The position numbers and the translations under genes are program-made. Under the pieces are notes generated by a model. The model had not been told where the DNA came from. It saw nothing but the letters and a program-made list of their open reading frames with translations, and ran no database searches. A DNA stretch of 32,179 nt, from NCBI GenBank assembly GCA_017302035.1, contig JAFLEA010000028.1, forward strand, positions 1 through 32,179. Direction: 5' to 3'. Positions 1 to 9,894 of this stretch are shown piece after piece. The stretch is from Lysobacterales bacterium (GTDB lineage: Bacteria > Pseudomonadota > Gammaproteobacteria > Xanthomonadales > Xanthomonadaceae). The first letter of the stretch is position 1, and each line of letters starts with the position of its first letter.

Positions 1-105
1 CCGCCGCGCACCGAAGAACGCCTGCGCAAGAACCCCCTGGGCATCTACGTCAACGGCCTGTCGTGGAGCCGCGAACTGGATTCTTCCGAAGGAGCCAAGC
101 CATGA
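1..105 (+). CDS. trbF: TrbF conjugal transfer protein, C-terminal end (partial)
   Basis: An open frame runs from the window edge to a TGA at 103-105 and encodes 34 residues containing NPLGIYVNGLSWSREL. This matches the C-terminal tail of TrbF (VirB8-like), an inner-membrane scaffold protein of conjugative type IV secretion systems. The stop overlaps the trbG start as ATGA, so translation is probably coupled. The assignment rests on the tail sequence and on the position immediately before trbG, the normal trb order. The start is outside the window. Confidence 0.75.
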   Translation, partial: PPRTEERLRKNPLGIYVNGLSWSRELDSSEGAKP

Positions 106-1094
106 ATGATCTTTTCCGTAAATCCGCTTTGCCGGTGATCCTGCTTGCCTTGGCGGGCTGCGCCACGCAGGGCAAACCGCCGCCGACCATCTCACTCGAT
201 GAGCCGGTACAGGCCCAGCCGCTGCCAGAGCCGCCCGCGCCGGTAGAGGTGGTGGCCGTGCCCGAGGTACTGCCGATGCCCGCGCAGTTGAAGCCGGCTC
301 CCGAAGCCGAGGACGCCAAGCCTGTGCCGGAGCCGGCAGACGAGAAGGTGCGCGTTTCGCGTGCCAATGCCGAGGCGCGCGTCGCGCCCACGCGCGAGGG
401 CTACGTCAACGCTATTCAGGTGTGGCCGTATAGCGATGGTGCGCTCTATCAGGTCTATGCGGCCGTGGGCCGCGTGACCGTGGTGTCGCTCCAGCCTGGC
501 GAGGAACTAGTGACGGTGGCCGCCGGCGATACCGTGCGCTGGATCGTGGGCGACACGTCCAGCGGCAGCGGCGCCGACCTGCGCGTGAACGTGCTGGTGA
601 AGCCCATCCGCTCGGGCCTCAAGACCAATCTCGTCATCACCACCAACCGCAGAACGTACCTGCTGGAGTTGGCTTCGACAGAAAAGACGTGGATGGCATC
701 GGTGTCGTGGGAGTACCCGCGCGACCGGATGCTGGCCTTGCAGCGCCAGGCGCAAGCGGCCAGCACCGCAGCGCCGGTCGATAGCGGCCTGTCGCTGGAG
801 AACCTGCGCTTCCGCTACGCGATCAGCGGCAGCAATCCGCCGTGGAAGCCGCTGCGCGCCTTCGACGACGGGCAGAAAGTCTATATCCAGCTTCCCGCCG
901 GCATCGCGCAGGGCGATCTTCCGCCGCTGTTCGTGATCGGGCCGGAAGGCGACGGGCAATTGGTCAATTACCGCTTCCGCTCGCCGTACTACATCGTGGA
1001 TCGGCTGTTCGGAGCCGCCGAACTGCGCTTAGGTGGCGACAAGGGCGATGTGGTGCGAATCGAGCGCACGGATGGCGTGGCACGGAGGAACTGA
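102..1094 (+). CDS. trbG: TrbG, VirB9-family outer-membrane-complex lipoprotein
   Basis: This 330-residue protein is the VirB9-like part of the outer-membrane core complex of a conjugative type IV secretion channel. It begins with a short lipoprotein signal peptide ending in a lipobox (LLALAGC, Cys about residue 21). A proline- and alanine-rich linker follows to about residue 85. The TrbG/VirB9/CagX beta domain comes next, containing VWPYSDGALYQVYAA and the later RTYLLELAS. The start at 102 is chosen over the longer open frame because it gives the signal peptide directly, overlaps the trbF stop (ATGA), and has GGAG 9 bases upstream. trbI follows after 2 bases. Confidence 0.92.
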   Translation: MNDLFRKSALPVILLALAGCATQGKPPPTISLDEPVQAQPLPEPPAPVEVVAVPEVLPMPAQLKPAPEAEDAKPVPEPADEKVRVSRANAEARVAPTREGYVNAIQVWPYSDGALYQVYAAVGRVTVVSLQPGEELVTVAAGDTVRWIVGDTSSGSGADLRVNVLVKPIRSGLKTNLVITTNRRTYLLELASTEKTWMASVSWEYPRDRMLALQRQAQAASTAAPVDSGLSLENLRFRYAISGSNPPWKPLRAFDDGQKVYIQLPAGIAQGDLPPLFVIGPEGDGQLVNYRFRSPYYIVDRLFGAAELRLGGDKGDVVRIERTDGVARRN

Positions 1095-1096
1095 CC

Positions 1097-2371
1097 ATGA
1101 GCCAGGACGACACCCCCGACCTCGCCACGCCGCAGGCGGGCAAGGTCGCGCCCGAGGCGGTGGCGCTGCGCGCCCAGCCGCGCCCGGTCACGCGCCTGAA
1201 CCGGCGCACGCTGGCCGTCCTTGTCGGCGGCCTGTCGGTCGCCGTGCTCGGGGCCACGATCTGGTCGCTGCAACCGCAACGGCGCGGCGCCAATGAGCAG
1301 ACCGAGCTTTACAACGTCGATCGCGTGTCGAAGTCCGAAGGGCTGGATGGCCTGCCTTCGGACTACTCGAAGCTGCCGCCGAAGGTGTCCGAGCTGGGGC
1401 CGCCGCTGCCGGGTGATCTCGGCCCGGCCATCGTGAACTCGCAGCAGCCGGTGACGCCGACGTATGTACCGCCGGGCCATGATCCCGAGGATGCCTTGCG
1501 CAAGGAGGCCGACGCGGCAGCGGCCTCGTCGGTGTTCTTCCGCTCGGGCGGCCAAAGCCAGGCCGCCGCCACGGTGACGCAGGCGGTGCCGGGTGCGTCT
1601 GGTGGCGCAAGCACGCTGGCGGCCTTTGACCCGCTCGCCGCTGGGCCGGCCTCGACGGCGGCCCAGCCTGCCGACCCGACCGCCGTGCAGAACCGGCAAG
1701 ACCAGAAGGAGGCGTTCCTGAAAGCAGGCTCTACGGAAACCCGCAATTCCGGCAATCTGGCGCTGCCGGTGTCGCCCTATCAGGTGATGGCCGGAACGGT
1801 GATCGCGGGCGCGCTGGTGACGGGCATCAAGTCCGACCTTCCGGGCGACGTGATCGCCACGGTGACGGAGCCGGTCTATGACACGGCCACGGGCAAGTTC
1901 CTGCTGATCCCGCAGGGATCGCGCATCCTCGGGCGCTACAACAGCCAGGTCAGCTACGGGCAGAGCCGTGTGCAGGTGGTGTGGAACCGGGTCATCCTGC
2001 CCGATACGTCCTCGCTGACGCTCGACAGCCTTGTCGGCACCGACCCGGCCGGCTACGCCGGCCTGGAAGACGACGTGGACTGGCATTGGAATCGCATCGT
2101 CGCGGGCGCGGTGCTGACGACGCTGCTGGGCGTGGGCGCCGAGCTGGCTGCGCCGGAGAACCGTCAGGACGGCAACCGGATCGTCATCGCCGGGCGCGAT
2201 AGCGCACAGGACAGCATCAATCAGGTCGGGCAGGAGATCACCCGGCGCAACATGAACATCCAGCCGACGCTGACCACGCGGCCGGGCCTGCCGGTGCGGA
2301 TCATCGTCAATCGGGATCTGGTGCTTCGGCCCTACCAGCCACTGTTCTTCAATCGGGGAGCTTCGCAATGA
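1097..2371 (+). CDS. trbI: TrbI, VirB10-family type IV secretion protein
   Basis: This 424-residue protein spans the envelope: a short cytoplasmic N-terminus, one membrane helix (LAVLVGGLSVAVLGATIW, about 37-54), a proline-rich periplasmic stretch, and the C-terminal VirB10/TrbI beta-barrel domain from about residue 225. The family core is visible as PYQVMAGTVIAGALVTGI, then LIPQGSRILGRYNS and the hydrophobic WHWNRIVAGAVLTTLLGVGAE, which corresponds to the antenna helix region. It links inner-membrane energy to the outer pore. The ATG at 1097 has GGAGG 8 bases upstream; an open frame extending further 5' lies inside trbG and is not used. The stop overlaps the next start as ATGA. Confidence 0.93.
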   Translation: MSQDDTPDLATPQAGKVAPEAVALRAQPRPVTRLNRRTLAVLVGGLSVAVLGATIWSLQPQRRGANEQTELYNVDRVSKSEGLDGLPSDYSKLPPKVSELGPPLPGDLGPAIVNSQQPVTPTYVPPGHDPEDALRKEADAAAASSVFFRSGGQSQAAATVTQAVPGASGGASTLAAFDPLAAGPASTAAQPADPTAVQNRQDQKEAFLKAGSTETRNSGNLALPVSPYQVMAGTVIAGALVTGIKSDLPGDVIATVTEPVYDTATGKFLLIPQGSRILGRYNSQVSYGQSRVQVVWNRVILPDTSSLTLDSLVGTDPAGYAGLEDDVDWHWNRIVAGAVLTTLLGVGAELAAPENRQDGNRIVIAGRDSAQDSINQVGQEITRRNMNIQPTLTTRPGLPVRIIVNRDLVLRPYQPLFFNRGASQ

Positions 2372-2610
2372 GCGCGACCAAGAAGCTGCGGCTCGGGCCG
2401 CTGCCCAAGACCGAGAACGTCAAGTTGACCTTTGCCTGCCCGGCCAGTCTGAAAGCCGACCTCGACCGCTACGCCGCGATGCACGCGCAGGCGTATGGCG
2501 AGGTGGTCGATGCAGAGAAGTTGATCCCGCACATGCTGGAGGCGTTCATGGCGGGGGATCGGGGCTTCAAGCGCACACAGTCCAAAAACGGGAAAGCCGC
2601 CCCTGCGTGA
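2368..2610 (+). CDS. DUF2274-family small protein, end of trb operon
   Basis: This 80-residue basic protein starts in an ATGA overlap with the trbI stop, with GGGGAG upstream. The sequence (KLRLGPLPKTENVKLTF, then LKADLDRYAAMHAQAYG and LIPHMLEAFMAGDRGF) matches the small DUF2274 proteins that commonly follow trbI in Tn4371-like ICEs. Part of it looks like a short ribbon-helix-helix-type fold, but no function is known to me. It is the last gene before the tRNA at the ICE end, and its stop codon lies inside a strong hairpin. Confidence 0.8.
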   Translation: MSATKKLRLGPLPKTENVKLTFACPASLKADLDRYAAMHAQAYGEVVDAEKLIPHMLEAFMAGDRGFKRTQSKNGKAAPA

Positions 2611-2622
2611 ACAGGGGCGGCT
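2595..2622. terminator. Bidirectional hairpin terminator between trb operon and ICE tRNA-Leu
   Basis: A perfect 11-bp stem (AGCCGCCCCTG / CAGGGGCGGCT) has a 6-nt loop that includes the stop codon of the DUF2274-like gene. On the minus strand the stem is followed by a T-rich run (TTTCCCGTTTTT), so it best serves as the terminator of the tRNA-Leu transcript. On the plus strand it would also end the trb operon, though no T run follows there. Confidence 0.7.
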
Positions 2623-2628
2623 CTGGAT

Positions 2629-2945
2629 TGGTGCCCGAGGCCGGAATCGAACCGGCACGCCTTTCGGCGAGGGATTTTCTTACCACTTCGACTTTCGCCG
2701 CCGCCTTGCTCAACGCAGGGCGTTCGTGGTCTGGAGCACGCCTTCACCATAGCCTTGCGGCCGTAGGTGCCCGCCGTCTGCTCTCTACACCTTCCCAAGC
2801 TGTGGCTTGGGCTTGGCTCGGCGTTGGCTCGGGTGCAAAAGCATCCAGGGCGTTCGCCGACTTTGACGGGCTTCACTTCGGGCGTTTCCCCCCGAAGGCT
2901 CAAATTGTTCAAGTCCCTTGTGTCTACCGATTTCACCACTCGGGC
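2629..2945 (-). tRNA. tRNA-Leu(UAA) interrupted by a group I intron, ICE-borne
   Basis: This is a complete leucine tRNA in two exons. Exon 1 is 2945-2911 (5' acceptor GCCCGAG, D arm, 5' anticodon stem, C32-U33-U34). Exon 2 is 2678-2629 (A35-A36-A37-A38, 3' anticodon stem UCCCU, a variable arm as in class II tRNAs, T arm GCCGG-UUCGAUU-CCGGC, acceptor CUCGGGC, encoded ACCA). The joined molecule is 85 nt with all stems fully paired and anticodon UAA. The intron falls between U34 and A35, the position used in cyanobacterial tRNA-Leu(UAA). It is not a duplicate of the native gene: the acceptor stem and D arm differ from the remnant at 3108-3148. It probably replaces the function of that broken gene. 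Confidence 0.93.
2679..2910 (-). ncRNA. Group I self-splicing intron (IC3-like) in the tRNA-Leu anticodon
   Basis: A 232-nt insert lies between U34 and A35 of the tRNA. The 5' exon ends in U and the intron ends in G, as group I introns require. The internal guide GAG (2901-2899) can pair with exon C32-U33-U34, giving the conserved U-G pair at the 5' splice site. A P2-like hairpin follows (CTTCGGG 2897-2891 with CCCGAAG 2882-2876). Blocks resembling the Anabaena tRNA-Leu intron, as I recall it, occur in order: a TTGAGCC start, a GTCAAAGTCGGCGAACGCC block, GAGCCAAGCC, GAAGGTGTAGAG near 2784-2795 (P7 region), and an ending of GAAGTGGTAAG. There is no open frame for a homing endonuclease. The subgroup is inferred from this resemblance. 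Confidence 0.88.
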
Positions 2946-3091
2946 GTAGTGCTCAACGCACCGAAAACACCTACCTCCATCTACTGGCGCCTAGCTGGCC
3001 CCTGATCGTCAAGCCAAGCAGCAAAGCTACAGCATGGACGCTCGCAAACCGTTGTCGCTATTGACCTTCTGGCTCGGTAGTTCTAGCAGAA

Positions 3092-3119
3092 AGGACTTGA
3101 CAAAACAGATTTTAAGTCC
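3092..3119. repeat. Inverted repeat at the ICE/chromosome junction (attachment core)
   Basis: GGACTT (3092-3097, ICE side) and AAGTCC (3114-3119, native tRNA side) are perfect inverted arms. Just inside them, AAAA and TTTT also pair around a short TCTG/CAGA centre, with three unpaired bases on the ICE side. One arm is the 5' anticodon stem and loop of the native tRNA; the other comes from the ICE. This is the form expected of tyrosine-recombinase core-binding arms flanking a crossover in the anticodon loop. The role is inferred. Confidence 0.5.
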
Positions 3120-3148
3120 CCTGTGTCTACCGGTTTCACCACCCGGGC
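3108..3148 (-). pseudogene. 5' half of the native tRNA-Leu(UAA), truncated by the ICE
   Basis: On the minus strand from 3148 the sequence reads as a leucine tRNA 5' half: acceptor GCCCGGG, D arm with GTAGACAC, anticodon stem GGGGA and loop CUUAAAA, then TC. There the match stops: the expected 3' stem strand UCCCC is replaced by ICE sequence, so neither anticodon stem, T arm nor acceptor can form. It differs from the ICE-borne tRNA in the acceptor stem and D loop, so it is the host's own gene. The missing 3' half should lie at the far end of the ICE. Its promoter, to the right, may still transcribe leftward into the intact ICE tRNA about 160 bases further on. Confidence 0.88.
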
Positions 3149-3264
3149 GTGGCCGAAGGCATTGTGCCACTGGCACCGCGCCAGGCGCAGGAGGGAACCT
3201 CCGGCGGTCCCGGACCGGGGGCCAAGGGCTAGACTGGCGCGCAGCCGCAAGCCACGGAGCCAGG

Positions 3265-4902
3265 ATGAGCCGCTATTCCGCCTACATCGCCAGCTGGATC
3301 CTGCTGCTGGCCTCGTTGCCGCTGGCGCTGCGCTGGCCGGGCTGGTGGTGGGGCGCGGGCATCGCCGCGGTGCTGGTCGCGCTGGGCAGCTGGGACGTGC
3401 TGCAGACCCGTACCACCCTGCGCCGCAACTATCCGATCCTGGCCCACTTCCGCTATGGGCTGGAGTCGGTCGGCCCGGAGATGCGCCAGTACTTCATCGA
3501 GAGCGACACCGCCGAGGCACCGTTCTCGCGCCAGCAGCGCGCCCTGGTGTACCGCCGCGCCAAGGGGGTAATGGACGTGGTCCCGTTCGGCTCGCTGCAG
3601 GACGCCTACGCGGTGGACTACGAATGGATCAACCACTCGCTGGCGCCGACCCGGATCGAAGGCCACGACTTCCGCGTGCCGGTCGGGGCGGACACCGCGC
3701 AGCCGTATTCGGCCAGCCTGTTCAACATCTCGGCGATGAGCTTCGGCTCGCTGTCGGCCAATGCGGTGCGCGCGCTCAACGAAGGCGCGCGCCGTGGCGG
3801 CTTCTACCACGACACCGGCGAGGGCTCGATCTCGCCCTACCACCTGGAGTGCGGTGGTGATCTGGTGTGGGAACTCGGTTCGGGCTACTTCGGCTGCCGC
3901 GACCCGGCCGGGCGCTTCGATCCGCAGCGCTTCGCCGAGCAGGCGGCACGACCGCAGGTGAAGATGATCGAGATCAAGCTCTCGCAGGGCGCCAAGCCCG
4001 GCCACGGCGGGGTGCTGCCGGCGGCCAAGGTCAGCGCCGAGATCGCCGCCACCCGCGGCGTGCCGATGGGCGTGGACTGCGTGTCGCCGGCCCGCCATTC
4101 GGCGTTCGATTCGCCGCTCGGGCTGCTGGATTTCATCGCCCGGCTGCGCGAGCTGTCGGGGGGCAAGCCGGTGGGCTTCAAGCTGGCCATCGGCCATCCC
4201 TGGGAATGGTTCGGGATCGCCAAGGCCATGCACGAACGTGCCGCGCGCGAGCCCGGGTCACTGCCGGACTTCATCGTGGTCGACGGCGCCGAGGGCGGCA
4301 CCGGCGCGGCGCCGGCCGAGTTCATCGACCATGTCGGCCTGCCGATGCACGAGGCGCTGCTGCTGGTCCACAACACCCTGGTCGGTCTGGACTTGCGGGA
4401 ACGGGTGAAGGTGGCGGCGGCCGGCAAGATCACCAGCGCCTTCGATATCGCCCGCACCCTGGCGCTGGGCGCCGACTGGTGCAACGCCGCGCGCGGCTAC
4501 ATGTTCGCGCTGGGCTGCATCCAGTCGCTGAGCTGCCACACCGATCGCTGCCCGACGGGCATCGCCACCCAGGATCCGGGGCGCTGGAAGCACCTGGATC
4601 CGGCCGACAAGGCCGCCCGGGTCCACCGCTTCCATGACCATACCCTGGCCGCGCTGCGCGACCTGTTGTGCGCGGCAGGGCTGAGCGACCCGAGCGAACT
4701 GGGGCCGGAACACATCCTGCGCCGGGTTTCGCCGGTGGAGATCCGTTCGCTGGCTTCGTTGTACCGCTACCTGCGTCCGGGCGAGCTGCTGCAGGGCATC
4801 CCCGAACACGCGGTGTTCCGCGACTATTGGGGGCAGGCGCGCAGCGACGCCTTCGTGCCGCCGGTCCGGCTCGAGGCGCTGCGCCGGAGCAAGGTCCGCT
4901 GA
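3265..4902 (+). CDS. FMN-binding glutamate synthase family protein
   Basis: This 545-residue protein has a membrane-anchored N-terminus (two hydrophobic segments, about 8-45) followed by a glutamate-synthase-type TIM-barrel domain. Visible family motifs are AMSFGSLSANAVRALNEGA, DTGEGSISPYH, IKLSQGAKPGHGG, VVDGAEGGTGAAPAEF (FMN phosphate region) and the cysteine cluster C-x5-C-x4-C in ALGCIQSLSCHTDRCPTG, which binds the 3Fe-4S cluster in GltB. There is no glutaminase domain, so it is not the full GOGAT large subunit; the natural substrate of this family is not settled. The ATG at 3265 has GGAG upstream. It is the first chromosomal gene next to the ICE junction and has no operon partner. Confidence 0.85.
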   Translation: MSRYSAYIASWILLLASLPLALRWPGWWWGAGIAAVLVALGSWDVLQTRTTLRRNYPILAHFRYGLESVGPEMRQYFIESDTAEAPFSRQQRALVYRRAKGVMDVVPFGSLQDAYAVDYEWINHSLAPTRIEGHDFRVPVGADTAQPYSASLFNISAMSFGSLSANAVRALNEGARRGGFYHDTGEGSISPYHLECGGDLVWELGSGYFGCRDPAGRFDPQRFAEQAARPQVKMIEIKLSQGAKPGHGGVLPAAKVSAEIAATRGVPMGVDCVSPARHSAFDSPLGLLDFIARLRELSGGKPVGFKLAIGHPWEWFGIAKAMHERAAREPGSLPDFIVVDGAEGGTGAAPAEFIDHVGLPMHEALLLVHNTLVGLDLRERVKVAAAGKITSAFDIARTLALGADWCNAARGYMFALGCIQSLSCHTDRCPTGIATQDPGRWKHLDPADKAARVHRFHDHTLAALRDLLCAAGLSDPSELGPEHILRRVSPVEIRSLASLYRYLRPGELLQGIPEHAVFRDYWGQARSDAFVPPVRLEALRRSKVR

Positions 4903-5001: not shown

Positions 5002-5076
5002 GGGCGGTTAGCTCAGCGGTAGAGCATTGCCTTCACACGGCAAGGGTCACAGGTTCGATCCCTGTACCGCCCACCA
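5002..5076 (+). tRNA. tRNA-Val(CAC), hybrid of chromosomal 5' half and island 3' half
   Basis: A 75-nt tRNA with encoded CCA. The acceptor stem is GGGCGGT/ACCGCCC, the anticodon stem TTGCC/GGCAA, and the loop TTCACAC gives anticodon CAC (valine, GUG). All stems pair. From loop position 32 (5032) to the CCA it is repeated at 16488-16532, so this copy's 3' half was supplied by the island while the native 3' half now sits at the other end. The two differences between the copies form one T-stem base pair (A-T here, G-C there), so both are functional forms. Confidence 0.95.
5032..5076 (+). repeat. Left attachment repeat (attL) of the island
   Basis: The 45-bp block from tRNA position 32 (anticodon loop) to the CCA end matches 16488-16532 with two substitutions, both in the T stem. 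Identity starts exactly at the anticodon loop; the base before it differs (C at 5031, A at 16487). This is the anticodon-loop sublocation known for many tyrosine integrases that target tRNA genes. Confidence 0.92.
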
Positions 5077-6968: not shown

Positions 6969-8345
6969 ATGACGTCAGCAGAGAATAGAACGGCGATCTT
7001 CATATCGCACGCGACGCCGGAAGACAACGCATTTGTGCGGTGGCTGGGAGCCAAGTTGACTGCGCTTGGCTACGAAGTTTGGGCGGATTTGTTCGCTCTG
7101 CGGGGTGGCTCCGACTGGTCTAGGAAACTAGAAGATGCTCTACGCCACCGCGCGATAAAGATGCTACTCGTCTGCACACCGGACGGCTTGGAGAAACAAG
7201 GCGTCCGCAACGAGATTGAGATTGCGACGGCAGTTGGAAAGTCGATCTCCGATCCGGAATTCATCATTCCGCTTCGTTTAAGCGCCTACGACGCTCCCTT
7301 TCGCATCGCGCATCTTCAATACATTGATTTTTCGCACGGATGGGCTGCCGGATTTCTTGAGCTTTCCGATCTCCTAACCTCGAACACTGCCATTCCACGA
7401 TCTAGCACGGGAACTGCATTAGACGAATGGCTGGCTGATCAAACCGATGGCGCGGCGAAACTGATCGATCGCGCTGAGTCTCTCATCTCGAATTGGCTTC
7501 GGATCAAATCGATTCCTCAGACGCTCTACTACTGCGAACCGCCCTTCGGCTTCGACCTTCAACGGTTCCAGATGCGCGATATCGAGGCTTATCCTCTCAT
7601 CCCGTTTAAAGGTGGAGTGCTCACCTTCGCCTCTCCAAACGATGCCGGCGAACTGCGCTCAGGCGTTCCGGCAAAAATCGTTGCAGAAATTTCGCTCTCG
7701 AAGTTCCAAGCCGAAGGATGGCCGGATGAAGGAATTGAGAAGTACGTCGCGAGCCGTCATTTCTCTGATCTCGGCAATCAAGCGTTCGACCTTTATATGC
7801 ACCGACTTGGAATGTCGGCGTTCGTTAATCAAAAAGGTCGAAACGCTTGGTGGACGAACATCAAGCTTGCACCAAAGACAAGAGTCTCTTTCGATTGGCT
7901 ATATACGAAAGGCTCGCGAAAGATCATGGGCCAATCTGGAAAGCGTGGCGTCTTTTGGCATTACGGACTGAACGCCCAGGTTCGTGACTACCCGAAGCCG
8001 CACATCCGTTTATCGCCTCGCTTACTGTTCTCTGAAAACGGATTAGACATTATCGGCGACCCGAAAAAGTCTCATCGCCTCCGAAGATCATTCGCTGCAA
8101 GTTGGAGAAACGCGCGCTGGAGAGACATGCTTCTTGCCTATCTCTGGTGGACCTCCGGCGGCATGAGCGAGATCGCTCTTCCGGTGTCTTCGACGGAAAG
8201 TATCGTCGCTGCACTTCCGCCGTTCTCGCCGGTCGCAAAGTTCGGCACGCAGGAAAGCGGAGATGCTGAAATCGTCGACGATGACGACCCAGATATCGAC
8301 TACGGCGCATGGTATGAAGATGAGGACGAAGGCAATGAACAATAG
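6969..8345 (+). CDS. TIR-APAZ protein of a SPARTA (short pAgo) defence system
   Basis: This 458-residue protein has an N-terminal TIR domain (about 8-140: AIFISHATPEDNAFV, YEVWADLFALRGG, LVCTPDGLEKQGVRNEIEIA). Glu82, in the RNEIE motif, sits where TIR NADases have their catalytic Glu. The APAZ region (about 165-420), specific to short-Argonaute partners, shows VFWHYGLNAQVRDYPKPHIR, then LRRSFAASWRNARWRD. The last 22 residues are strongly acidic. In characterised SPARTA systems the TIR-APAZ/pAgo pair binds guide RNA and target DNA, assembles into oligomers and depletes NAD+, killing or arresting the infected or plasmid-bearing cell. The gene overlaps the pAgo start by 11 bases. No clear Shine-Dalgarno precedes the start, so translation may couple to the upstream gene. 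Confidence 0.92.
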   Translation: MTSAENRTAIFISHATPEDNAFVRWLGAKLTALGYEVWADLFALRGGSDWSRKLEDALRHRAIKMLLVCTPDGLEKQGVRNEIEIATAVGKSISDPEFIIPLRLSAYDAPFRIAHLQYIDFSHGWAAGFLELSDLLTSNTAIPRSSTGTALDEWLADQTDGAAKLIDRAESLISNWLRIKSIPQTLYYCEPPFGFDLQRFQMRDIEAYPLIPFKGGVLTFASPNDAGELRSGVPAKIVAEISLSKFQAEGWPDEGIEKYVASRHFSDLGNQAFDLYMHRLGMSAFVNQKGRNAWWTNIKLAPKTRVSFDWLYTKGSRKIMGQSGKRGVFWHYGLNAQVRDYPKPHIRLSPRLLFSENGLDIIGDPKKSHRLRRSFAASWRNARWRDMLLAYLWWTSGGMSEIALPVSSTESIVAALPPFSPVAKFGTQESGDAEIVDDDDPDIDYGAWYEDEDEGNEQ

Positions 8346-9894
8346 ACGCCTTGCGTTCGATCTACTGCATATTGAAGAGCCGGAGCTTGAATTTCGCTTC
8401 GGTCAAAGGGTGACGTATCCGCGAGATGGCCTCTATCTGTTCGGGCCGGTAGATGCCGGCGAAATTCCTCGCTCCATCCGTTACGGCTTTATCGGAACTC
8501 CGCAATCCTTCGAGTGCTTTCAGGAGTGGGCGTCCAGCGTCTCGGCCTATATTCCAATACCGCCAAAAGGTCGCGCGTCCAAGGAAAACGCCCCTCACCA
8601 TGTCCCGTTCCCCGGCTTCGCCGAGGCATTCTTTTCGCACTGGTCGGCGACGCCTGCATGTGCGATTCGGGACTTGTCCGAAGATGATTTGAGACGCAAA
8701 GCGCACATTGGCAACAGGCACGAAGCGATTAAGGAGCTAGTCGACACATACGTCGATAGGCTAATTTCTGAGACGAAGCGACTCGAAGACCCTCCGCAAT
8801 TCTGGTATGTCGTTATCCCTGAGTTCGTTTACGAGCTTGGTCGGCCGCAGTCGACAGTGGCGAAGGCGGACCGGGTTGAGGGAAAAATCCTCTTGAGCGA
8901 AAAGCAAGCATCGAAGCTTACCTATCAATCATCTCTCTTCGCCCAGGACGAGAAGGATGCTGAGGTCTATCAGTATGAAAAGAACTTTCGGCGCCAGCTA
9001 AAAGCTCGTTTGCTCGACCACAAGATCGTCACTCAGATTGTTCGTGAAACGACATTGGCGCCCGCAAGGTTCCTGAAAGCTGGAACAGATCAGCCGAAAC
9101 GCAGAGTCGAAGACCCGGCTACCATTGCATGGAAGCTATCGACAGGCTCCTATTACAAATCTGGCGGCAGACCGTGGCAGCTAGCAGGCGTGAGGCCCGG
9201 AGTTTGCTATGTGGGACTGGTCTATAAGCAGCAGCCTTCGCATGAAGACCAACGCTATGCCTGCTGCGCGGCTCAGATGTTCTTGTCGGATGGTGAAGGG
9301 GTTGTCTTTCGCGGTGCGCTTGGCCCTTGGTACAACCCTGAGACGAAGCAGTATCACTTGGATGCCGATGCGGCTTATCGATTGGCGACGACTGTCATTG
9401 CAGAGTACAAAAGCCAACACGGACAAGAACCTACTGAGCTTTTCATACACGCACAGTCGCGTTTCGATAACGACGAGTGGGACGGGTTCGCGAGAGCTTG
9501 CAGCAATGCGACGAATCCCGTCGGCGTCCAGATCGCAGATGCGTGGGATGATCTGAAGCTATTCCGACCAGGTGAGTATCCAGTAATCCGGGGAACCGCA
9601 CTCGTGGTCAGCGAGCGCGCGGGCTACCTATGGACATCCGGTTTCGTTCCACGCTTGGACACGTACATGGGGCCGGATACACCCAACCCGTTGCATATCA
9701 CCATTCGACGGGGCGAAGCGCGGATTCAAACCGTCATGGCAGACGTGCTCGCGCTGAGCAAGGTCAACTTCAATAGCTGCCTGTTCAATGACCGCTTCCC
9801 GGTCACGCTTCGATTCGCGAATGCTATCGGCGAGATTCTCGTCGCCGCACCGCTTCAATCCGAGCCGATGCTGCCCTTCAAGCACTACATCTGA
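8335..9894 (+). CDS. Short prokaryotic Argonaute (MID-PIWI) of SPARTA, catalytically inactive
   Basis: This 519-residue protein has MID and PIWI domains only, with no PAZ. The MID region has the short-pAgo nucleic-acid-binding pattern around DHKIVTQIVRETTL (about 228-241) and AWKLSTGSYYKSGGRPWQL (265-283). The PIWI domain follows from CYVGLVYKQ (291-299) to the family-typical C-terminal end. The first catalytic Asp of active Argonautes is absent (GLVYK), and no DEDX tetrad is evident. This agrees with short pAgos that sense guide-target duplexes rather than cut them. The ATG at 8335 lies inside the end of the TIR-APAZ gene. The gene is last in the operon and converges on the xre-like gene with a 9-base gap. 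Confidence 0.92.
   Translation: MNNRRLAFDLLHIEEPELEFRFGQRVTYPRDGLYLFGPVDAGEIPRSIRYGFIGTPQSFECFQEWASSVSAYIPIPPKGRASKENAPHHVPFPGFAEAFFSHWSATPACAIRDLSEDDLRRKAHIGNRHEAIKELVDTYVDRLISETKRLEDPPQFWYVVIPEFVYELGRPQSTVAKADRVEGKILLSEKQASKLTYQSSLFAQDEKDAEVYQYEKNFRRQLKARLLDHKIVTQIVRETTLAPARFLKAGTDQPKRRVEDPATIAWKLSTGSYYKSGGRPWQLAGVRPGVCYVGLVYKQQPSHEDQRYACCAAQMFLSDGEGVVFRGALGPWYNPETKQYHLDADAAYRLATTVIAEYKSQHGQEPTELFIHAQSRFDNDEWDGFARACSNATNPVGVQIADAWDDLKLFRPGEYPVIRGTALVVSERAGYLWTSGFVPRLDTYMGPDTPNPLHITIRRGEARIQTVMADVLALSKVNFNSCLFNDRFPVTLRFANAIGEILVAAPLQSEPMLPFKHYI

Follow-up and report, generated by a model that had tools for sequence, protein, structure and literature searches.

The DNA analysed here, a stretch of 32,179 nt referred to as the window, holds one end of a Tn4371-family ICE of the ICEKKS102Tn4677-like branch. 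Judged from sequence comparisons, ICEs of this kind almost certainly break the tRNA-Leu(UAA) gene of their host and replace it with a copy of their own, and a group I intron in that copy probably serves to hide it from the ICE integrase. In the mechanism proposed, the tyrosine integrase of the ICE recombines the 9-bp core CTTAAAATC, part of the anticodon loop in the host tRNA-Leu(UAA) gene. As comparison of genomes shows, the gene is thereby split, with its 5' half left at one ICE end and its 3' half at the other, and neither end rebuilds it. The ICE brings a complete tRNA-Leu(UAA) of its own, situated about 160 bp inside its end, and a group I intron splits the anticodon loop of this copy; after splicing, a normal tRNA would result. 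By means of the intron, the element would retain a working version of its target and yet present no second integrase target about 200 bp from attP. Excision of the ICE would restore the native gene, and where the ICE decays first the intron-bearing tRNA would stay as the only copy of the host, a route by which, as remnants suggest, the intron could spread.

Organization of the ICE end

The ICE side of the window (Table 1) also holds the end of a VirB8 gene, and this end, CagX/TrbG, TrbI and DUF2274 are trb-type mating-pair genes, which together with the tRNA-Leu att core GATTTTAAG/CTTAAAATC mark a Tn4371-family ICE of the ICEKKS102Tn4677-like branch. In the complete relative of G003, genes for a TrbE-like protein, a T2SSE-family ATPase, a coupling protein and a DUF3363/relaxase protein are present. 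A tyrosine integrase adjoins attL in relatives; the contig of the window (C47) begins inside the ICE. The truncated native tRNA-Leu 5' half that the sequence-only reading had placed beside the ICE copy is indeed there, as a 40-nt, 90% repeat of the ICE tRNA, 203 bp apart from it, which runs from 3148 to 3108 and ends in GGACTTAAAATC, after which non-tRNA sequence begins.

Table 1. Features of the ICE end and of the adjoining chromosomal flank in the window
Feature	Position	Strand	Parts	Basis
CagX/TrbG conjugation gene	63..1094	(+)		Pfam E 1.4e-67
TrbI conjugation gene	842..2371	(+)		Pfam E 1.2e-60
DUF2274 gene at ICE end	2368..2610	(+)		Pfam E 2.7e-25
Terminator-like hairpin directly 3' of tRNA CCA	2593..2624	(-)		14-pair stem and T tail
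ICE-borne tRNA-Leu(UAA), encoded CCA	2629..2945	(-)	5' exon 2911-2945, 3' exon 2629-2678	ARAGORN, introns allowed
232-nt group I intron, between U34 and A35	2679..2910	(-)		ARAGORN; Rfam Intron_gpI; covariation over 32 introns
162-bp ICE end, att core to replacement tRNA	2946..3107	(-)		Conserved among ICEs while native halves vary
9-bp att core CTTAAAATC, ICE/chromosome junction (called attR here)	3108..3116	(-)		Common to both ICE ends; reverse complement of published GATTTTAAG
Native tRNA-Leu(UAA) 5' half, broken in anticodon loop	3108..3148	(-)		Repeat; coordinates; diverse counterparts in 25 other loci
Chromosomal flank, glutamate-synthase-like gene	3266..4902	(+)		Pfam Glu_synthase E 2.8e-83

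The start codon of the glutamate-synthase-like gene was picked by eye inside ORF 3034-4902. Further along the right-hand, chromosomal side there is a tRNA-Val at 5002-5076 and, about 2 kb from it, a gene for a TIR-domain protein followed by one for a short prokaryotic Argonaute (6969-9894, (+) strand; PADLOC Aga_TIR E 7e-148, pAgo_I E 1e-205), which we take to be a SPARTA-like defence pair and which is perhaps on another island.

The replacement gene and its intron

The complete tRNA-Leu(UAA) with a 232-nt intron at U34/A35, first noticed in the bare letters, is called by ARAGORN at c[2629,2945] when introns are allowed; default ARAGORN and Rfam at gathering scores miss it. The Rfam check proposed for 2620-3160 succeeded in one respect and fell short in another: Intron_gpI matched the intron in a permissive scan (E 6.6e-6), but at 30.9 bits, below the gathering score of 50. 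In a wider Rfam scan (E<=0.001), three of nine other sources gave Intron_gpI, namely L143 and L101 with 40-41 bits and L196 with 32, none of which reaches gathering; at the same threshold there was no match in the tRNA-Leu(CAA) introns described further on.

The group I structure was named from the window together with the Rfam alignment. When 32 introns are aligned (30 of the UAA and two of the CAA type), P3 is near-invariant and P7 is invariant and paired in 32/32. A P3-P9 core with P7, covarying helices and a terminal G, as in group I introns, is seen, with an Rfam score that stays below gathering. The structure pairs in 96.0% of cells, against 30-40% when it is slid by 1-3 columns, and two-sided changes occur at 20 pairs, in 101 cells against 32.2 in shuffles (0/500 shuffles reach 101). 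The introns of ICE copies are 224-247 nt long. As for signals around the gene, the single terminator-like hairpin near the CCA compares with a shuffle mean of 0.9, and a search for the sigma-70 promoter consensus upstream of the intron-split gene found none.

In the DNA of the window the 9-bp att core occurs once, at attR only; the anticodon loop of the replacement copy is split by the intron, and the core is therefore absent from that copy. The joined exons of the 34 parsed ICE copies (32 distinct) contain the full core, a figure that is partly built into the parse, in which only loci cut off at the end failed. Without its intron, such a copy would thus present a perfect attB some 200 bp away from attP.

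Recurrence of the layout and the far end of the ICE

An exact pattern for the intron-bearing 5' part matches at least 118 stretches in public genomes. ARAGORN reads 114 of the 118 listed matches as intron-bearing tRNA-Leu(UAA), the others being three that run off the locus and one called Phe. The sequence-only reading had proposed that truncated tRNAs be sought next to intron-containing ones at other ICE ends, and the same layout was found at 9/9 ends selected by att sequence (window included; see below) and in 25 of the 118 listed loci, where, as in the window, a truncated native half stands upstream of the intron tRNA at a spacing of 198-207 or 232-235 nt and CTTAAAATC or a near variant is joined to the ICE end. 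Recurrence on this scale is not a matter of chance. Within a spacing class the ICE side is conserved, except that L143 and L116 diverge, whereas the native halves vary by host; DUF2274 is on the ICE side within the fetched locus in 18 of the 25. By a looser test, 34 of 122 parsed copies were labelled ICE, or 32 without two duplicates (L183 = L107, excluded from the tree discussed below; L184 = L106, kept in it). L082, L095 and L146 are unparsed since the locus ends there, L117 was labelled native only through N letters and is an ICE copy, and L102 and L205 are tRNA-Phe according to ARAGORN, although L205 reads as tRNA-Leu(UAA) with an intron starting in A.

The opposite end, attL, was sought in 31 genomes, namely the 25 with the attR layout and six whose loci contain ICE genes although the first test saw no half there. 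The pattern for the tRNA-Leu(UAA) 3' part matched in 25 of them, and reading of the matches gave a true attL in 24, with the ICE end, the core and then a host-specific tRNA 3' half; the ICE end is conserved in 23 of these 24 and divergent in G015. In 11 genomes a single contig holds both ends, at a distance of 41-83 kb; in G017 the distance is only 1.5 kb, and in G019 the ends are on opposite strands. Three candidates for attL were rejected: L181 and L182 are separate intact tRNA genes, and L169 (a match in G007) was dropped. No tRNA is called from either native half alone, and ARAGORN reads 19/19 true attL/attR joins as tRNA-Leu(UAA). Two false joins (L181, L182) read as tRNA-Leu too, which means that ARAGORN is not a strict test, and an acceptor-stem control was therefore added. 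Halves from the same genome form 7/7 acceptor-stem pairs in 20/20 cases scored (of 24; G019, G027, G029 and G030 were unparsed), against 169/380 mixed pairs, and 0/10000 permutations reach the observed sum.

These results bear on a reading that takes the intron tRNA for an ordinary gene of the chromosome and the adjoining half for an unrelated fragment or pseudogene, with no ICE boundary between them. Many intron tRNA loci do lack ICE genes nearby, as that reading would have it, but one conserved ICE end joins diverse native halves at a single point and the matching 3' halves lie at the distances given above on the same contig in 11 genomes. For these ICEs it is refuted by the attL 3' halves and the acceptor-stem fit, and we give it practically no credence.

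Exactly two tRNA-Leu(UAA) 5' parts, one broken and one intron-bearing, about 200-235 nt apart, were found in 26 of 32 genomes; among the other six, two have a third 5' part (an intact gene in G011, a tRNA-Leu-like one by pattern in G024) and four have the intron copy only. A separate intact intronless tRNA-Leu(UAA) is present, by a second pattern, in only 2 of 31 genomes, G011 and G015, the extra copy of G015 escaping the first 5'-part pattern. The ICE copy is thus the only tRNA-Leu(UAA) found in most hosts examined, within a set of genomes many of which are drafts or metagenome bins. The claim that the ICE destroys its target and complements it is strongly supported by these 3' halves at the far end (24/31), by the stems that fit wherever scored (20/20) and by the scarcity of extra intact copies (2/31). 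The rule used by Islander, that an island end rebuilds the split tRNA, does not describe these ICEs, in which neither end gives a tRNA and a separate full gene is carried. As for the accompanying claim that the host depends on the ICE, it stands only for the integrated state because excision would rebuild the native gene; once the native half has decayed, dependence on the ICE copy would be lasting.

In the draft genome to which the window belongs (2.9 Mb, 125 contigs), the native 3' half pattern TTAAAATC..GGTTCRA has no match and no integrase was found at E<=1e-90, so that the 3' half expected at the far ICE end was not recovered there; contig C47 starts inside the ICE. The proposed search of this draft for another tRNA-Leu(UAA) turned up none, in an assembly that is also missing tRNA-Leu(CAG) and therefore has gaps.

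Ends selected by att sequence and by integrase

ICE ends were also sought by att sequence alone in two sets of genomes, 398 from the order of the window and 399 from another order (797 in total). With an att pattern that was derived from intron-bearing ICEs, and that a different ICE end could escape, nine ends were found, the window included, and 9/9 carry an intron tRNA-Leu(UAA) within about 240 bp. Four of them were already in the list obtained with the intron pattern (L058, L106, L107, L148) and four are new (L185, L186, L204, L205). Matches of the att pattern in viral contigs were discarded, as 5/5 are in unrelated sequence without a tRNA half or an intron tRNA.

The integrase of the Lysobacter concretionis ICE, used as query, has matches in 16 of the 398 genomes. 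Five integrases at 83-93% identity are found at a CTTAAAATC attL with a tRNA-Leu(UAA) 3' half (5/5), ten at 64-69% identity (seven genomes) at TTTTTCAT-like sites, a label given on the strength of a loosely defined pattern of 8 bases whose distance from the integrase is constant at 174-175 nt, and two at tRNA-Leu(CAA) 3' halves (G407, 68%; G142, 61%). G407 and G142 each have a broken native tRNA-Leu(CAA) 5' half and, 226 bp further inside the element, a complete tRNA-Leu(CAA) interrupted by a 244- or 230-nt intron. A third tRNA-Leu(CAA) case, G824, was found via its intron, and the same genome also has a UAA-type ICE. BLAST with the window gene found no intron tRNA in the seven genomes with a TTTTTCAT-like att. 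An intron-split, anticodon-matched replacement is present in 6/7 genomes with a tRNA-Leu attL versus 0/7 with TTTTTCAT-like sites (Fisher p 0.0047), in a table that leaves out the mixed cases G269 and G392 (counting G269 as TTTTTCAT-type gives 1/8) and takes G383 as a miss. G383 has the integrase and attL without an intron tRNA and without a tRNA-Leu(UAA) 5' part by pattern, and its missing intron tRNA is likely an assembly gap. In G269 an intron tRNA with a decayed half was found, together with an integrase match that lies at a TTTTTCAT-like site and contains an in-frame stop. G392 has two intron tRNAs, one of which adjoins a broken native half, and its integrase (79% identity) is located outside any tRNA gene.

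The tRNA-Leu(CAA) introns (L230:1258-1501, L232:1272-1501, L255) have C, not U, as the last base of the 5' exon, which could form a C-G pair at the splice site. A C in this place is unusual for a group I intron, and because of it splicing of the CAA introns is less certain than that of the UAA type.

That the intron shields the replacement copy is supported because splicing would restore the att core from the exons in all parsed ICE copies, because all nine att-selected ends have the intron and because the two integrase-selected tRNA-Leu(CAA) breakers carry an intron-split tRNA-Leu(CAA). The same samples weigh against the main alternative, in which the ICE does break and replace the gene while the intron, as a passenger, has no protective role, an ancestral ICE having captured a chromosomal tRNA-Leu(UAA) that was already intron-split. 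Such genes are to be had, since Proteobacteria commonly have intron tRNA-Leu(UAA) genes that show no att remnants (at least 82 loci labelled native, one of them wrongly). Nevertheless, the intron is present at 9/9 att-selected ends though hosts offer intronless tRNA-Leu genes, the tRNA-Leu(CAA) breakers have it in the matching isoacceptor (2/2 integrase-selected, plus the one found by its intron) and an ICE copy without an intron was not seen in these searches.

Origin, decay and possible spread

The tree of introns can be read in both directions with regard to this passenger role. Among 121 introns, ICE and non-ICE copies are mixed, with 17 label changes against a shuffled mean of 28.2, which is what capture from native genes might leave; however, ICE introns stand at several places, starred (well-supported) branches forcing at least six ICE-label changes in either direction, and a passenger would thus need repeated capture or loss. 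On balance we regard the passenger role as rather unlikely, though deserving of some weight, and prefer a shielding intron. Identical introns are found in Lysobacter, Pseudoxanthomonas, Castellaniella and Tepidicella. Five alphaproteobacterial loci (L056, L077, L093, L127, L131) form an intron branch of their own, which is well supported, and are without an att remnant in the upstream scan.

The intron could instead be the mobile unit itself, homing into tRNA-Leu(UAA), its closeness to att being a coincidence. Group I introns can indeed be mobile, and they occur in cyanobacterial tRNA-Leu(UAA). However, the ICE introns are too short for a homing endonuclease, their spacing to the att core is near-constant within the two classes given above, and identical introns are shared by beta- and gammaproteobacterial hosts of the ICE, all of which makes homing very improbable.

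For 50 genomes with an intron gene beside which the first test saw no att half, an intronless match was sought; 46 of them lack one, and the four matches are a real extra intronless copy (L200), an attL (L201) and two sequences that are not tRNAs (L198, L199). A scan for broken halves upstream of the 82 genes labelled native and in G269, in which intact ICE halves score 68-110 and the shuffle maximum is 36, found altered halves at five loci. L067, L109 and G269 are clearly decayed (scores 44-51), whereas L073 and L123 are mildly altered (79 and 74) and fall inside the range of intact ICE halves, so that only three are clear decays. Within the available 0.5-3.2 kb there is no trb or DUF2274 beside four of the five altered halves; L109 has a DUF2274 match.

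A more complete remnant is that of G017 (L196), where 1.5 kb hold attL, a DUF2306 membrane gene, an intact intron tRNA and attR, without int or trb. Together with the decayed native halves it suggests domestication of the intron tRNA. G392 has an ICE end, complete with intron tRNA, at an imperfect core in what appears to be a non-tRNA site, and the integrase 58 kb away bounds, in our reading, the same ICE; from this we infer that the shield held there against a second insertion.

Spread of the intron by ICEs is an idea that we hold tentatively, at somewhat less than even odds. The same reserve applies to the broader proposal that tRNA-Leu-breaking Tn4371-type ICEs keep a group I intron as an att mask on an anticodon-matched tRNA (UAA for UAA, CAA for CAA), and that their decay leaves the masked tRNA as the only copy of a host that would then be immune at that gene, the intron having spread in Proteobacteria in this way without a homing endonuclease.

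Relation to known systems

The att core GATTTTAAG has been published for ICEKKS102Tn4677 and ICEbphKF708, the main target of which is tRNA-Leu, and excision and conjugative transfer are reported for ICEKKS102Tn4677 (excerpts of PMC11448139, PMC6563109, PMC9960961). This core is the exact reverse complement of CTTAAAATC, and these two members of the Tn4371 family, like the ICE studied here, have trb genes. They were compared by description only, and in the same excerpts neither an intron nor a replacement tRNA is mentioned, the word intron being absent from those of PMC11448139 and PMC9960961. The Pasteurellaceae ICEs of P. multocida and M. haemolytica break tRNA-Leu in the anticodon loop and bring an intact copy (excerpt of PMC6028734); by description only, their att core GATTTTGAATCAA differs and the excerpt mentions no intron in the replacement gene. 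Replacement of a broken tRNA-Leu by an ICE is already known from the Pasteurellaceae, and what appears to be new is the intron-split replacement: no report of an ICE with an intron-split, anticodon-matched replacement tRNA was found in the open-access literature. The CAA elements, the remnants and the link to ICEKKS102Tn4677 go beyond the earlier reading of the window.

Classic Tn4371 ICEs with a TTTTTCAT-type att (excerpt of PMC2789088) have a related integrase, at 64-69% identity for the ten found here, and belong to the same ICE family according to the literature. In contrast to the ICEs described above, they insert at TTTTTCAT-like sites and not in a tRNA gene, and 0/7 such genomes have an intron tRNA. 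In cyanobacteria and plastids the tRNA-Leu(UAA) intron has the same insertion point, U34/A35, and the genes concerned are ordinary chromosomal ones, outside integrative elements. It is the same tRNA that group I introns occupy in these lineages (excerpt of PMC4033280). Randau and Soll hypothesized that archaeal tRNA introns or split genes block integration (as cited in excerpts of PMC4090602 and PMC4033280). In both cases a tRNA att site is split, but there the host shields itself, whereas here the element would shield its own replacement copy with a self-splicing intron. Genomic islands, for their part, normally restore their target tRNA with a fragment (excerpt of PMC4383910).

If the mask operates as proposed, it would be a concrete bacterial case of a tRNA intron guarding a gene against integrases, the protection belonging in this case to a mobile element. 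It would offer a route for endonuclease-free group I introns, whose patchy distribution is otherwise without explanation, to become fixed in essential tRNA genes, and conjugative elements would be obligatory suppliers of an essential tRNA while integrated. Finders of islands that rely on tRNAs may miss such ICEs, as default searches do not see the replacement gene of the window and no tRNA is rebuilt.

Intron tRNAs on plasmids and other cargo

Two plasmids (L152 3001-3250, L155 1117-1365) carry, beside aac(3)-IId, a stretch that reads as tRNA-Leu with a group I intron (tRNA-Stop with an intron according to ARAGORN), and in both a GGACTTAAAAAGTC stretch lies about 170 bp upstream of the intron tRNA. 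The same search matched 1396 plasmid records, mostly enterobacterial, and the plasmid segment adjoining aac(3)-IId may have originated as the end of an integrated element of a similar kind. An intron tRNA-Leu(UAA) is also found on a Mycetohabitans megaplasmid (L153 4001-4342), with no listed gene under it, and on a Bradyrhizobium conjugative plasmid (L154 4001-4284), about 750 bp from trbI. Finally, the cargo of the L. concretionis ICE includes a SIR2-HerA defence pair (L195:7476-10597).
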